64,000 bases of DNA from Bacillota bacterium (lineage in GTDB: Bacteria; Bacillota; Clostridia; DSM-8532). Positions 5,700 through 56,941 of this stretch are shown here, piece by piece (within the stretch, counting starts at the first letter, position 1; each line of letters opens with the position of its first letter). Under the pieces are notes generated by a model that saw nothing but the letters and a program-made list of their open reading frames with translations, was not told where the DNA came from and searched no databases. The translations under genes were made by a program, and so were the position numbers. The stretch spans positions 1 through 64,000 of the forward strand of contig JAKIML020000077.1 of the NCBI GenBank assembly GCA_022702935.2, in the 5' to 3' direction.

Positions 5700-6542
5700 T
5701 TAAAGGGTTACTGATTTGTGACGGGTCACATGGCAGCTTATATTAACGGCCACGGGCAGTCCGGCAATATGGGTGGGATAGGTCTCAATATTCACGCCCA
5801 GGGCGGTCATACGGCCTCCCAGCCCCGCAGGACCGATGCCCAGCTTGTTAATGCTCAAAAGAAGCTGCTGTTCCAAATCCCTGTAATAGGCATCGGGATG
5901 GCCTTGATCCAAAGGACGCATCAAGGCCTTCTTGGCCAAAAGGGCGGCCTTCTCCATGCTCCCGCCGATTCCCACACCCACCACAATGGGAGGACAGGGA
6001 TTGGCACCGGCCTGACTGACTGTATCAATAACCACCTTTTTCACGCCTTCCACGCCGTCGGAGGGCTTAAGCATCTTCAATGCGCTCATGTTCTCACTGC
6101 CAAAGCCCTTGGGGGCCACATGGATTGTAAGCTTGTCCCCTTCCACTATCTCATAGTGAATCACGGCCGGAGTATTGTCCTTAGTATTTTCTCTCCGAAG
6201 GGGATCTCTGACCACTGAGTTTCTCAGATAACCCTTCTTATAGCCCCGGCGTACACCCTCGTTGAGGGCCTCCTTCAGGCTTCCCCCGGAGATATGTACA
6301 TCCTGACCCAGTTCTACAAAGAGGATGGCCATTCCCGTATCCTGGCAAATGGCCAGGCCTTCCCTGGCTGCAATCTCGGCGTTCTTAATGAGGCTTTCCA
6401 GAATGGAGCGCCCCGTATCCGACTCCTCTAAGTCCGCCGCTTTTTCCAGGGCATTTTTCACATCCTCATTCAAATAAAGATTGGCGTCTATACACAGCCT
6501 CTCTACGGCATCGATGATGGTTGCTGCTTCAATGGTTCTCAT
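5700..6542 (-). CDS. fumA: Fumarate hydratase class I, alpha subunit
   Basis: A 280-residue protein matching the alpha (N-terminal) part of the two-subunit, [4Fe-4S] class I fumarase/tartrate dehydratase. Visible pieces are ICQDTGMAILFVELGQ (first cluster Cys region), GSENMSALKMLKPSDG, ANPCPPIVVGVGIGGSMEKAALLAKKAL (second Cys) and the terminal SCHVTRHKSVTL (third Cys). It would convert fumarate and malate, but needs the beta subunit for catalysis. In Clostridia beta normally follows directly; here rsmI follows, so beta must be elsewhere or lost. The start at 6542 has GGAG eight bases upstream. Confidence 0.9.
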   Translation of the reverse strand: MRTIEAATIIDAVERLCIDANLYLNEDVKNALEKAADLEESDTGRSILESLIKNAEIAAREGLAICQDTGMAILFVELGQDVHISGGSLKEALNEGVRRGYKKGYLRNSVVRDPLRRENTKDNTPAVIHYEIVEGDKLTIHVAPKGFGSENMSALKMLKPSDGVEGVKKVVIDTVSQAGANPCPPIVVGVGIGGSMEKAALLAKKALMRPLDQGHPDAYYRDLEQQLLLSINKLGIGPAGLGGRMTALGVNIETYPTHIAGLPVAVNISCHVTRHKSVTL

Positions 6543-8583: not shown

Positions 8584-9435
8584 ATGGAGAGAAATGCACT
8601 GGTTGATCTTCATATGCATTCCACCGCCTCGGACGGCACCTGGCGCTCTGAAAGGCTTGTGGAGAATGTTTTAAAGGCCGGCATCAAGCTGTTTGCCCTC
8701 ACCGACCATGACAGCACCGAAAATGTTCCCGCTGTGGCTTTACTGGCCGCACAAAACGGCCTGAGCTTTGTCCCCGGCGTTGAGGTTTCCACCTTGTATG
8801 AAAACAGGACCTATCACATTCTGGGGCTGGGCATTAAGCCCGGACATGAGGCTCTGGAGCCCATGCTGGCTAAAAACCGGCGGCTTATGGATGATAAGGA
8901 TGATGCGGGCATTCAGTATCTGGCCTCTATTTATCCGGAACGTGTTTCCTTTGAAGAATACCTTGCCTATGTGGACGATAAAGAAAGGGGCGGCTGGAAG
9001 AGTCTCAATTATCTCGTGGATAAGGGGTTGTGTACCAGCCATAAGGACTTTTTCAGCCTTTTTATCGACTGGAAGGAGGCCTTCAGTCAGGTGGAGTTCC
9101 CCGCTCCTCAACAAGCCATCGCCGCCATCAAGGCAGCCGGGGGTATCCCCATACTGGCCCATCCCGGCAGCCGTTCCTATGATCCGGATACTCAAAAGAT
9201 TCTGAAGGACTTTAATGACATGGGCGTCATGGGCTTTGAATGCTTCCACCCCGATAACAACGAAGAAGCCACCCGGCTTTGCCTGAGCTTTTGCTGGGAA
9301 CACGGCCTGCGTATAACCGGAGGTTCGGACTGCCATGGCGACTTTGTGCCCAGCCGGGGCCTTGGGCATCCCCTGGTCAGGCTCTCCGACCTTGACCTTG
9401 AGGGCATCACCATTCTGCCCCCGGGCGAAATATAG
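8584..9435 (+). CDS. PHP-domain phosphoesterase
   Basis: A 283-residue PHP-domain protein of the YciV/RNase AM type. Metal-binding motifs are DLHMHSTASDGT (residues 8-19), ALTDHDS, PGVEVST, LAHPGS and GGSDCHGD. Relatives hydrolyse 3',5'-nucleotide bisphosphates or trim short RNA 5' ends. The start has AAGGAG about eight bases upstream. It is a single plus-strand gene between rnc and the fatty acid cluster. Its downstream terminator was split by the inserted element. Confidence 0.88.
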   Translation: MERNALVDLHMHSTASDGTWRSERLVENVLKAGIKLFALTDHDSTENVPAVALLAAQNGLSFVPGVEVSTLYENRTYHILGLGIKPGHEALEPMLAKNRRLMDDKDDAGIQYLASIYPERVSFEEYLAYVDDKERGGWKSLNYLVDKGLCTSHKDFFSLFIDWKEAFSQVEFPAPQQAIAAIKAAGGIPILAHPGSRSYDPDTQKILKDFNDMGVMGFECFHPDNNEEATRLCLSFCWEHGLRITGGSDCHGDFVPSRGLGHPLVRLSDLDLEGITILPPGEI

Positions 9436-9476
9436 CCGAAGCCCACCTTATCTCCCTTTCGCTGAGCGGTCAAATT

Positions 9477-9513
9477 AAAAAGCAGCCCTTTTGAGGGTGC
9501 GTCTTAGGGATTT
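9477..9513. other. Left attachment site (attL) of the inserted element
   Basis: Chromosomal half: AAAAGCAGCC (9478-9487), then TTTTGAGGGT. Element half: CTTAGGGATTT (9503-9513). The proposed core is GC at 9499-9500. The mirror image of both halves is found at 12342-12377, which is the arrangement left by a large serine recombinase acting on dyad-symmetric attB and attP. Confidence 0.6.
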
Positions 9514-9558
9514 TCAATCCCGGAAAAATATCGGCATAGTTTGGTATGTATTTACCGG

Positions 9559-10452
9559 CTATGCCGATTTTTCATTCTTTGTGGTGGATGTAGAAACCGG
9601 TGGCTCAAACTCGCCAATGCAGTTCCATACGATTTTGATACGCTGTACCCGTCGGCCATCAATGCGCTCTGCCTTGTAAACAAAGATTTTTTCAACGAAT
9701 TCCCGTATAACCTCGGCTGTGAGTTCATTTATGTCCGTATACTTTCTTACCAGTGAGAGGAAGTGGTTAACATTGAGAGCGCTTTCTTTTTCCTCTGTCA
9801 TAATGGATTTCAGTTCCGTTACTCGCTTCTCAAGAGTCTGCTGCTCGGCTTCATAGTTTGCGGTCATCTTTGTAAAACGCTCATCGGATATCTTGCCCTC
9901 TATGTTATCTTCATAGAGCCTTTGAATAATCTCGTCCAGCTTGGCGATGCGGGCCTGTGCCTGTTCCAATTCGCGTCTGCTGTCACGCATACTTTTGTCA
10001 AGCTCTGACCTTGTTTTCTTAGTTACCATTTCCACGAATTCGTCCTCACAGTCTCTGGCAAAAGCCGTTACGCGGCGTATACCGTCAAGGAGCAGTTCCT
10101 CAACGACCGCATTGCGTATCTGGTGTGAACTGCATCCGCCTTTTATCTTGCGGTAGGTAGCGCATACAAAATACTCTTTTTCATGTTCCCAACCCCGCCC
10201 ACGCACCTGATACATTTTGTTTCCGCAATCCGCACAGAACATCATGCCGGAGAGAAGCGGCATTTCACCCATCGGTGTGAGCCTGCGTCTGCCATCCCTG
10301 ATTCTTTGTACTACTTCGAATACGGATTCCTCAATAATTGCTTCGTGGGTATTCTTGAAGATCATCCACTCCGACGGGTCATAAAGGTGTCTGAGCAACA
10401 CCTTCCTCGCAACCTTATACTCGTCTGCTCCTGCAGGAAGGATCTGTAAACG
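9559..10452 (-). pseudogene. Large serine recombinase, C-terminal remnant
   Basis: About 298 codons with no proper start: an in-frame stop lies just upstream of 10452 and no resolvase catalytic domain follows. What remains is the part after the catalytic domain: ENTHEAII-like FKNTHEAIIEESVFEVVQ, the zinc beta-ribbon GMMFCADCGNKMYQ with FVCATYRKIKGGCSSH, a long coiled coil (about residues 115-210) and the C-terminal FVEKIFVYKAERIDG. Intact relatives are about 500-550 residues, so roughly 200-250 residues, including the active-site Ser, are gone. A GTG at 10401 could start a fragment, but it would be inactive. It ends 46 bases from the element's left end, the expected place for an integrase. 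Confidence 0.82.
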
Positions 10453-10584
10453 CGCAACTCACTCCTATATGTACAAGAGTGAAATTATATGGCACCTCCA
10501 AACAATCACCAGATTAAGTCCGTGGATACCTATATTATTTATCGATTAAAGGTAAAAAAATATTTCCAATTATTTTTAGATTAA

Positions 10585-10633
10585 CTGTTTACACCATACA
10601 CAAGTTGTGATATGCTGTGTATAACGTAAACAG
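10585..10633. promoter_or_regulatory. 49-bp inverted repeat over the parA promoter (operator or parS candidate)
   Basis: Two 18-base arms: CTGTTTACACCATACACA (10585-10602) and TGTGTATAACGTAAACAG (10616-10633), matching as inverted copies at all but three central positions, with a 13-base spacer. A promoter is embedded: TTTACA (10588-10593), 17 bases, TATGCT (10611-10616). The right arm ends 14 bases before the HTH-ParA start codon, adjoining AGGAGG. The most likely reader is the HTH domain of that protein, giving autorepression, a partition site, or both. Confidence 0.7.
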
Positions 10634-10646
10634 TAGGAGGGGAATT

Positions 10647-11702
10647 ATGGATGATTTAGTCGGCATCGCCGAAATTGCAAAGATGTTTGATGTTAGTTCG
10701 GCTGCTGTTACAAATTGGAGAAGTCGATCAGAAGATTTCCCTAAACCCGTAGCGATACTGAAATCAGGTCCGGTATTTCAAGCTGAGCATGTAAAAAAAT
10801 GGTATAGGAGGAGAAACAAAATGGCGGCAACAGTAATTTCTTCAATTAATCTTAAGGGAGGTGTAGCCAAGACTACGACAACGGTTGGGCTTGCTCAGGC
10901 TCTCTCAGGGGTATTCAATAAGCGTGTACTGGTTATTGACTTAGATCCTCAGACTAATGCCACTACAATGCTTATCGGAGAGGAAAAGTGGTTTGCCCTT
11001 AACCAAGAAGGTTATACACTCGCTACATTGTTTGAGGACGCAATAGACGATAGTAGCAATTTTAATCTCTTAAAAACCCTACAAAAATCTGTGGGAAATG
11101 TCAACGAAGTTAAATCAGTCGATTTATTACCTTCAAGTTTAAATTTAATTGACTTACAGGATCGATTGATAACAATGCCTGCTGGAAAATATCAGACTCG
11201 TAACCCAGTTAATATTCTTCGTAGAGGTATAAAGGATATTGTTGACGATTATGACTATGTTTTGATCGACTGCCCACCAAATCTCGGATACATTACACTT
11301 AATGGTCTTCGCATTTCAGATGGCTACATCATTCCAACGATACCGGATGTCATGTCAACATATGGAATTCCCCAGATTGTTACTCGTGTAGCAGAATTCT
11401 CAGGAGAAATCGAAGATGAGATCATCCCTATAGGCATAGTTGCTACAAAAGTACGTGGGCAAGCTGCTATTCATACAAGAACCATGAATAAAATGCATAA
11501 CGATGCAGGCAAACCAATGGGAGGCTCGAAGTTGCTTTATCCTCTAGTCTTTGATGCATATTTTTCAGAGAGTGCCCAAATAGCAGAAGCAGCTGAATAT
11601 CAAGAATACAGCACGCTTAGACAGAAATGGGGATACCAAGGTCAATACAACTCTCTTGTTGAGTTTACGGAAGAATTTATGAGGTTAACCGAGGGGGTAT
11701 AA
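10647..11702 (+). CDS. ParA-family ATPase with N-terminal helix-turn-helix domain
   Basis: A 351-residue protein. Residues 1-55 are a MerR/AlpA-like HTH (DLVGIAEIAKMFDVSSAAVTNW, then FQAEHVKKWY). The rest is a Walker-type ParA ATPase: deviant P-loop KGGVAKTTTT near residue 70, VLVIDLDPQTNATT, YVLIDCPPNLGYITLNGL and PTIPDVMSTYGIPQI. ParA-type ATPases move plasmids or act as DNA-bound switches; the HTH-ParA fusion is typical of plasmid P1/P7-like and some integrative-element systems, in which the protein also represses its own gene. The ATG at 10647 follows AGGAGGGGAATT. It is separated by 3 bases from the small downstream gene, its likely partner. The codon use is AT-rich, unlike the flanking genes. 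Confidence 0.85.
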   Translation: MDDLVGIAEIAKMFDVSSAAVTNWRSRSEDFPKPVAILKSGPVFQAEHVKKWYRRRNKMAATVISSINLKGGVAKTTTTVGLAQALSGVFNKRVLVIDLDPQTNATTMLIGEEKWFALNQEGYTLATLFEDAIDDSSNFNLLKTLQKSVGNVNEVKSVDLLPSSLNLIDLQDRLITMPAGKYQTRNPVNILRRGIKDIVDDYDYVLIDCPPNLGYITLNGLRISDGYIIPTIPDVMSTYGIPQIVTRVAEFSGEIEDEIIPIGIVATKVRGQAAIHTRTMNKMHNDAGKPMGGSKLLYPLVFDAYFSESAQIAEAAEYQEYSTLRQKWGYQGQYNSLVEFTEEFMRLTEGV

Positions 11703-11705
11703 AAT

Positions 11706-12143
11706 ATGGATAGGAAGACAATTCTTGCGTTATGGAAAAAAGCAAGTGTTTGCATTGCAGATGAAATCACTAATAATGATGAGTTTGCAAACCGCTTAGG
11801 TTTAATATTTGAAGAAAACTTAGTTAAGGTGAAGTCCTCCAAAATGGAATCCGCCAATACTAAATCTAAAAAGGGTAATCGGCGCGAACCCGCTAAAATT
11901 AATCCGTTTATCTTACTTGAGCAAGGAGTCGAAGGATTAAAGACGGCACTTGAAGCTCTGAATATAGAAGAACTAAAAGATGTTATTGCAGAAAACGGCA
12001 TGGATACTGCAAAGTTAGCAATGAAGTGGAAAGATCGAAATAGACTCATAAATCACATCATTGATACTACTCAACGAAGATCCTCACGAGGAGAAGCCTT
12101 TTGGAATACAGGTAAAGAGAAACCTACTGAAGAAGATTTGTAA
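11706..12143 (+). CDS. Unknown protein, candidate partner of the HTH-ParA ATPase
   Basis: A 145-residue basic protein I do not recognise with certainty. The N-terminal half is MDRKTILALWKKASVCIADEI, then a Lys/Arg-rich linker (about residues 45-62). The C-terminal half (about 75-135) is helical: LKTALEALNIEELKDVIAEN, GMDTAKLAMKWKDRNRLINH, ending in RRSSRGEAFW. The helical segment resembles small DNA-binding SAP-like modules that I would expect in an adaptor. Its position directly after parA, where parB normally sits, suggests a centromere-binding or adaptor role, but it shows no ParB motifs. The function is not assigned. Confidence 0.6.
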   Translation: MDRKTILALWKKASVCIADEITNNDEFANRLGLIFEENLVKVKSSKMESANTKSKKGNRREPAKINPFILLEQGVEGLKTALEALNIEELKDVIAENGMDTAKLAMKWKDRNRLINHIIDTTQRRSSRGEAFWNTGKEKPTEEDL

Positions 12144-12249
12144 AGGACCAGTTGGTACACGGATTTTCTTTCAACCACTAAATAGCAGAAAATTTAATTG
12201 TAATATATGGAAATTAAGTATCTATCTAAAAAGTAATCAACATATAGAG

Positions 12250-12289
12250 AAAGACTGCACCGAAGGATAAAACCTTTAGTGCAGTCTTT
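12250..12289. terminator. Bidirectional terminator inside the element
   Basis: Perfect 11-bp outer stem AAAGACTGCAC / GTGCAGTCTTT with a small inner stem AAGG/CCTT. It ends the parA operon on the plus strand. On the minus strand it stops transcripts leaving fabF, replacing the terminator destroyed by the insertion. Confidence 0.82.
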
Positions 12290-12341
12290 ACATTAGAACC
12301 TCCGCTTGAAGAAAGTCGGTCAAAAATTTACTTGTTTTCGT

Positions 12342-13627: not shown

Positions 13628-13680
13628 TGTTGACCTCCTTGACAAATAAGTTCATTTGGAATACGCCATGATGAATAAAA

Positions 13681-13711
13681 AAAGCCCCAACGTTTATTTG
13701 CTGGGACTTTT
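13681..13711 (-). terminator. Intercistronic terminator between acpP and fabF
   Basis: On the minus strand, AAAAGTCCCA, a 12-base loop, TGGGGCTTT and then a long T run. It lies after acpP and before fabF in the same operon, so it would stop part of the transcripts and raise ACP mRNA relative to fabF. Confidence 0.78.
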
Positions 13712-13729
13712 CTTATTCACTTGATTCAT

Positions 13730-48962: not shown

Positions 48963-49001
48963 TCGTAAATGCCTTTTTCATTGAGATAAGCCTCTACATG
49001 G

Positions 49002-49043
49002 CAAAGCCCCTTTCGCCAGACCGCTCTGACGGAAGGGGCTTTG
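49002..49043. terminator. Bidirectional terminator between kinase and serC
   Basis: Stem CAAAGCCCCTT / AAGGGGCTTTG with a longer inner pairing (CCAGA/TCTG). Flanked by T-rich sequence on the plus strand; convergent genes share it. Confidence 0.85.
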
Positions 49044-49110
49044 ATTTTGTGGGTGTTTGCTTCACGCTCATCACTGCCGTGATGGCTAAGCAAAAAGCGG
49101 GAGTAAGCTT

Positions 49111-56184: not shown

Positions 56185-56236
56185 ACCTAACTTAACCTTC
56201 CATGAATCAGCTTTTTTAAATATATCGTCCCTTCCT

Positions 56237-56941
56237 TTAAAAAAGATGACTGATCATTTCGGCCAGTTTGATTCTTGAGCTTTCCACCCATTCTATAATG
56301 CGAAACTTTACCTTGATGGCTACATTGCTCTTGTCGGTCACATCGGTAATCAGGCTGTAGGCATCTTCACTGAGGCCATCCTTCAGCTCGCTCATGGCAT
56401 CCTCGTCCATTCTCAGGCTATGGGCATCGGCGACACACAGGGGCGGAAACATCACACACCACCAGTTCTGGCCCTGGGCCTCACCCAGTTCCACCCGAAC
56501 AGCCTCATACATTCCGGCAGGCAGGGTCACGCCTTCATAGGCCTTGGTGGGGAAGGAAAAGACGCCGTACCGAACGTTTGCCGTCTCCCTGGAGCCGTTT
56601 TCCTTTAAAACCTCATTGGCAATCTGCTTAATTTCGGGAAGACTATTCTTAAGGTATTGGGCGGCCTCCTCCCGGGTAGCGCCGTCGGGATACTTCTGGT
56701 GCATATGCTCAAGAATGGCGTCCCTGACCTTCAGCTTCAGGGCTTGATCCTGGGCTGAGTCACTGTTGGCCACAATGTGGAGCCTAACCACATGATCGGC
56801 GATCTCCCCTTGTATGCTGCCGCTGTAGATGATGCAAATGATGAGCACAACCAGCAGAAACTTGGCTGCCGCCGAAAGAAAATGCGCTATAGAAGAAGCT
56901 TCCTGCAGTCTCATCAGGATTCTTTTATTGTTAAATACCAT
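56237..56941 (-). CDS. spoIIR: Stage II sporulation protein R
   Basis: A 234-residue protein with an N-terminal membrane helix (FLLVVLIICIIYSGSI, about 27-42) and the SpoIIR core VVRLHIVANSDSAQDQALKLKVRDAI, VRVELGEAQGQNWWCVMFPPLC. Made in the forespore and secreted to trigger SpoIIGA to process pro-sigma-E in the mother cell. It shows the organism belongs to an endospore-forming lineage. ATG 56941 chosen over GTG 56950 because AAGGTG then has proper spacing. Confidence 0.95.
   Translation of the reverse strand: MVFNNKRILMRLQEASSIAHFLSAAAKFLLVVLIICIIYSGSIQGEIADHVVRLHIVANSDSAQDQALKLKVRDAILEHMHQKYPDGATREEAAQYLKNSLPEIKQIANEVLKENGSRETANVRYGVFSFPTKAYEGVTLPAGMYEAVRVELGEAQGQNWWCVMFPPLCVADAHSLRMDEDAMSELKDGLSEDAYSLITDVTDKSNVAIKVKFRIIEWVESSRIKLAEMISHLF

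Follow-up and report, generated by a model that had tools for sequence, protein, structure and literature searches.

Paired palindromic sites over the promoter of a mobile two-gene ParA module form a predicted double operator

We found that the inverted repeat upstream of parA in the window (the whole 64,000-nucleotide stretch of DNA that was analyzed) is made up of two adjacent palindromic sites, O1 and O2 (Table 1). Judging from a comparison of related loci, these sites are most likely a double operator through which ParA, by way of its N-terminal winged helix-turn-helix (HTH), would cooperatively repress its own two-gene operon. The autoregulation would probably be of type Ia character, but the operator is built differently, the HTH is not the type Ia one, and the partner protein is unrelated to ParB. 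Phages, plasmids and integrated elements carry this two-gene module from one phylum to another. Its operator can be predicted precisely, and the paired sites are a short DNA target that is directly testable.

A repeat search of the window identified two 19-nt arms (10584-10602 and 10616-10634) separated by a gap of 13 nt, with 16 of the 19 positions paired (84% complementary). Trimmed to 10585-10602 and 10616-10633, this repeat is the 49-bp dyad, with 18-nt arms and three mismatches, that had been described in the first-pass annotation. When the whole window was shuffled 20 times under a first-order Markov model, no comparable repeats (19-nt arms, at least 16 paired, gap of at most 20) arose; they were present in 2 of 2000 copies of 200-bp intergenic composition. 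Four other places in the window, near 12250, 13671, 49001 and 56202, had repeats of equal quality (12250-12289, about 13671-13720, 49001-49045 and 56202-56254); these are probably hairpins or terminators. A dyad per se is therefore not unique in the window, and it is the comparative conservation that carries the weight.

Each arm is itself a 17-bp palindrome, a point that was missed in the first reading, so that what had been taken for one cis-site is two adjacent palindromic sites. We dropped the view of the 49 bp as a single large dyad of two half-sites, because the arms are each palindromic and the spacing between them varies by about one helical turn. The large dyad is a real second level of symmetry, since outer halves match outer halves and inner halves match inner halves; in the window they do so exactly, with TGTTTAC in both outer and TGTGTAT in both inner halves.

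The upstream regions of ParA relatives yielded a 17-bp consensus for the sites, TGTKWAC-N3-GTWMACA. We scored the window with a matrix trained without the window and without its two closest relatives (L033 and L034). Among 63,984 window positions, O2 ranked first (21.1 bits) and O1 second (20.3 bits), and the third-ranked position scored 9.7 bits. With the same matrix, one position in 8 Mb of random sequence reached at least 18 bits. The dyad spans the parA promoter as originally proposed: the -35 hexamer is inside the left arm, the -10 hexamer abuts the right arm, and the Shine-Dalgarno sequence is just downstream. A generic sigma-70 promoter scan gave 6 promoter-like sites compared to 6.0 expected from shuffles, a number not above chance, and the promoter call therefore depends on where the hexamers lie and on relatives having the same geometry.

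Table 1. Features of the parA region in the window.
Feature	Position	Strand	Description
Large serine recombinase, C-terminal remnant	9559..10401	-	Recombinase, Zn_ribbon_recom and DUF4368 domains
Unit shared with L033	10581..12109	+	80% DNA identity; similarity ends on both sides
O1	10586..10602	.	17-bp imperfect palindrome TGTTTAC-ACC-ATACACA; includes the -35 hexamer; motif common with 22 relatives
-35 TTTACA	10588..10593	+	5/6, inside O1; same geometry in L033, L034, L130 and L132
-10 TATGCT	10611..10616	+	4/6; spacer 17 nt
O2	10616..10632	.	17-bp imperfect palindrome TGTGTAT-AAC-GTAAACA; first base is the last base of the -10 hexamer
Shine-Dalgarno AGGAGGGG	10636..10643	+	By sequence; ATG of parA at 10647
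HTH-ParA ATPase, 351 aa	10647..11702	+	Pfam AAA_31 4e-39; AlphaFold pLDDT 86.6; Foldseek Soj/ParA E down to 2.7e-17
Winged HTH segment, residues 1-57	10647..10817	+	Strand, helix, helix, two strands, helix in the AlphaFold model
Partner, 145 aa	11706..12143	+	Homologue directly after parA in 23/23 HTH-ParA loci
17-bp inverted repeat after the operon	12250..12289	+	Possible terminator without a T tract; not called by the terminator scan

ParA relatives were gathered from viral contigs, plasmids and genome contigs, and sites were counted in the 23 loci with a full-length HTH-ParA. The operon has relatives with the same sites in the same position in Alphaproteobacteria, Streptomyces, Acidobacteria, Nitrospira and phage-like contigs. 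There were two copies of the site in 20 of the 23 loci and one copy in the other three, in a sample that includes near-identical members (L123 and L125); the single-site branch is at 42-44% identity. The sites were at most 100 bp from the start codon in every locus and scored 12.7-24.7 bits, and no further sites of at least 10 bits were found in any of the 23 loci. Spacing between the centers of the two sites fell into two classes, 22-23 bp (15 loci) and 30-31 bp (five loci: the window, L033, L034, Streptomyces L043 and phage-like L133), and was never 24-29 bp. These classes correspond to about two and about three helical turns. Across the loci, the four half-sites formed a higher-order dyad in which outer halves resembled outer halves and inner halves resembled inner halves above expectation (p about 0.006, with the relatedness of the loci not removed).

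The promoter had two layouts relative to the sites. Of the 15 short-spacing loci, 12 had a TTGAC-type -35 located 12-13 bp upstream of O1, and most had the -10 in the right half of O1, with O2 starting 5-6 bp beyond. The operator sequence itself partly determines this -10 (TAAACA or TACACA, 3/6). The window, L033 and L034 have the -35 within O1 and a -10 that ends at O2. Protein bound in either layout would sit over the promoter, in keeping with autorepression.

The sites occurred together with the HTH of ParA. They were present upstream of all 23 HTH-ParA genes and of none of 24 relatives lacking the HTH, among which the best upstream score was 5.2 bits, not a site. The partner was retained in most of these 24 HTH-less relatives, and on Firmicute chromosomes ParA and partner also exist as a pair standing alone, without HTH or operators. 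L141 belongs to the same class as the window; it has no HTH and no sites and keeps the partner. Its ParA groups with the clade of the window (support 0.98), inside a 20-member clade with support of 0.998. Because this HTH-less, site-less gene is nested inside the HTH clade, its phylogenetic position indicates that the HTH and the operators were lost together and are not primitively absent. L042 (Caballeronia) is similar, with no HTH in frame and no site, and L049 is a weaker case (support 0.72). The absence of sites where the HTH is absent, including the nested loss, indicates that the sites go with the HTH. Because some relatives have the DNA-reading head and its operator and others have neither, they offer a natural experiment by which autoregulation could be separated from partition.

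ParA has the motifs KGGVAKTT (residues 70-77), DLDPQ (98-102) and IDCPP (207-211), including the signature lysine (KGGxxKT) of ParA/Soj-type P-loop ATPases, and its predicted fold matches Soj and P1 ParA. Matches to SopA and RepA models covered the ATPase region only and were below cut-off. Profiles matched by the HTH segment included PHROG DNA-binding and excisionase families (1e-6 to 1e-5), PADLOC mad1 (1.2e-5) and the N-terminus of a type I methyltransferase (MTase_I, 1.1e-8). The PADLOC matches link the segment to small regulators of defense systems and suggest that one kind of small DNA-binding head recurs across defense and mobile modules.

The partner begins with a helical N-terminus, followed by a disordered linker, at the end of which is a conserved R-R-x-P. 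Its C-terminal domain is conserved and contains K-W-K ... G-x-x-F. In relatives it ranges from 120 to 200 aa and is not ParB-like; in L131 it is the ORF at 6044-6472. There was no significant match to the partner in Pfam, NCBIfam or PDB, nor in a fold search, and these family and fold searches revealed no recognizable DNA-binding domain. We found no description of the ParA/partner pair in the open-access literature searched. The two-gene module is widespread and appears to be undescribed, and the partner is a candidate for a new class of ParA adaptor. By eye, the partners of several clostridial HTH-less relatives (L048, L051-L053, L142 and L143) have an HTH-like N-terminal segment that is on the partner and not on ParA, for which Pfam gives no support. 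A transfer of the DNA-reading role between ParA and partner is possible in these relatives.

We propose that two ParA winged-HTH heads would bind each palindrome, the half-sites of which are about one helical turn apart. ParA would occupy O1 and O2 cooperatively and once bound would repress its own two-gene operon; its binding form probably depends on nucleotide, and the partner perhaps assists. ParA and partner together would be a self-contained, horizontally moving ParA/adaptor module, probably one that keeps or positions a mobile element. What the comparison shows directly is the motif with its pairing, spacing and place, the way it is present or lost together with the HTH, the two-gene organization, and the fold of ParA; HTH binding, repression, nucleotide dependence, cooperativity and the partition role are inferred. 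Type Ia ParA proteins autorepress their own promoters (PMC8465637, PMC9178275, PMC4492784); among them, rhizobial RepA acts on palindromic operators, which it binds together with ADP (PMC4492784).

We considered several other readings of the sites. It is extremely improbable that the inverted repeat arose by chance or resembles a terminator and has no protein reader. The other inverted repeats of like quality in the window would allow this, but the same motif is in the same place in 22 relatives of several phyla, with bases that vary between relatives yet stay within the motif, and no terminator was called. We take a chance repeat to be refuted by this conservation. Reading of the sites by a host regulator (SOS, catabolite or other) is very improbable as well. 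Half-sites such as TGTGAAC do resemble parts of known boxes. However, the GAAC-N3-GTTC spacing does not fit SOS boxes of the GAAC-N4-GTTC type, there were zero perfect matches to the motif in the bacterium's own genome, and the same motif is found in unrelated hosts, with its presence or absence tracking the ParA HTH and not the host. An SOS/LexA-like or other host regulator was rejected on the basis of the own-genome motif search and the distribution of sites.

A different question is whether the sites act in partition. If they were a centromere (parS) as well as an operator, the ParA HTH, or ParA with its partner, would nucleate a partition complex there and anchor the ATPase to its cargo. 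Operator and centromere coincide in some known systems, for example pSM19035 omega, and the sites are the only conserved non-coding DNA in the segment shared with L033, which runs from the sites into the partner gene. Since conserved DNA extends only from 10581 to about 12109, a conserved parS would be either the operators or inside the genes; the comparison with L033 revealed no conserved DNA outside the operators and genes that could be a separate parS, although a parS within the coding sequence, or one that is not conserved, is possible. We nevertheless think this combined role improbable. To our knowledge, the centromere in known ParA systems is bound by the partner protein and not by the ATPase, and the partner here has no recognizable DNA-binding domain. 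In addition, lineages without HTH and sites retain ParA plus partner, and this persistence of the pair indicates that the operators are dispensable for the conserved two-protein function. The first-pass annotation had offered operator, parS, or both, read by the HTH on ParA; the operator part is strongly supported by the distribution of sites and their loss in L141, and the pairs that do without them give the parS part no support. A centromere role is neither needed by the data nor supported, and a double role is possible. It is quite improbable that the ATPase is itself the sequence-specific anchor, with HTH-ParA sitting on a combined operator/centromere, the partner stimulating the ATPase or bridging, and the HTH lost or taken over by the partner in relatives. 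Alternatively, HTH and operator could be purely regulatory and the module could position a non-self cargo (a protein, as with McdA/McdB), riding mobile DNA as a cargo gene pair. The lack of a recognizable DNA-binding domain on the partner would suit this reading, one carrier plasmid has partition genes of its own (repABC), and the loci compared had no constant neighbor gene, with contexts that included phage head genes, integrases, a conjugative plasmid and chromosomes. On the other hand, we found no cargo candidate, and the HTH form is mostly on phage-like contigs, on plasmids and beside integrases, which fits element maintenance. We regard a cargo other than the module's own DNA as possible but rather unlikely.

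The predicted autorepression by HTH-ParA is closest to that of type Ia systems (F SopA, P1/P7 ParA and rhizobial RepA). In common with these, ParA is about 350 aa long and has a winged HTH at its N-terminus, a symmetric operator overlaps the parA promoter, a second gene is directly downstream, and the regulatory region is compact. The operator differs: here two copies of a 17-bp palindrome are spaced at 22-23 or 30-31 bp, and in F there are hexamers 28 bp apart that are bound by three dimers (PMC8465637). The HTH here is a short AlpA/excisionase-like winged HTH without the long N-terminal extension of the P1/F type, and the ParB-unrelated partner contrasts with a large ParB-type protein with an HTH. 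Type Ib systems (ParF/ParG and delta/omega) also have a small partner, a compact cassette and an operator beside the start. However, their ParA has no HTH and their small partner binds the operator, as repressor and centromere binder, whereas here the HTH is on ParA and the sites follow it. McdA/McdB likewise combines a ParA-fold ATPase with a small adaptor that has no recognizable DNA-binding domain. McdAB-type adaptors bind protein cargo that is usually encoded nearby; the module analyzed here differs in having the ParA HTH and operators, mobile-element contexts, and no cargo genes among its neighbors, although a cargo encoded elsewhere is possible. The HTH-less ParA and KWK-partner pairs (L047, L141 and L145-L153, from Firmicutes and others) have a homologous ATPase and partner in the same order and differ in having neither ParA HTH nor operator; judged by eye, the HTH-like segment in their Clostridium branch may instead be at the N-terminus of the partner.

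Several observations bear on the mobility of the cassette. The window cassette was acquired horizontally and inserted between fabF and rnc, which are neighbors in two congeners (L166 and L168), and the adjacent recombinase remnant points to a mobile origin for this part of the window. There was no second full-length member in 32 genomes of the same family (the other 31 lacked it), and a DNA search of a phage genome collection gave no match. Among the relatives, L034 is between phage terminase and portal genes, L035 and L036 are beside integrases, and L133, from a phage-like contig, has a DNA polymerase A gene close by. The Methylocystis relative is on an 80-kb plasmid that has its own repABC, and a ubiquitin-like gene set (multiubiquitin, E2, ThiF and DUF6527; L039:3786-6173) is near the cassette on this plasmid. 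In the window, positions 8584-12330 hold a PHP-domain gene, the truncated serine recombinase and the parA cassette between fabF and rnc, and these two flanking genes adjoin each other in congeners G008 and G004. The PHP gene may be older than the cassette, since it adjoins rnc in G013. Positions 9485-9600, at the end of the recombinase remnant, recur in congener G006 with 97% identity, a trace of a shared mobile element.

We also used a loose consensus pair as a DNA probe for new members in viral contigs and abandoned it, as it recovered mostly unrelated repeats in or near phage replication genes. The only HTH-ParA loci among these pattern matches were L187, L193 and L202, all already known, and the helical phasing was not drawn from the pattern counts. 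Phage replication loci unrelated to this system also have the loose pair, so an HTH-ParA system cannot be diagnosed from the consensus by itself. Four of the unrelated phage loci (L180, L184, L191 and L192) have tandem TGTNNAC-N3-GTNNACA palindromes 20-23 bp apart, several of them inside or adjoining replication-type genes, and these look like origin repeats.
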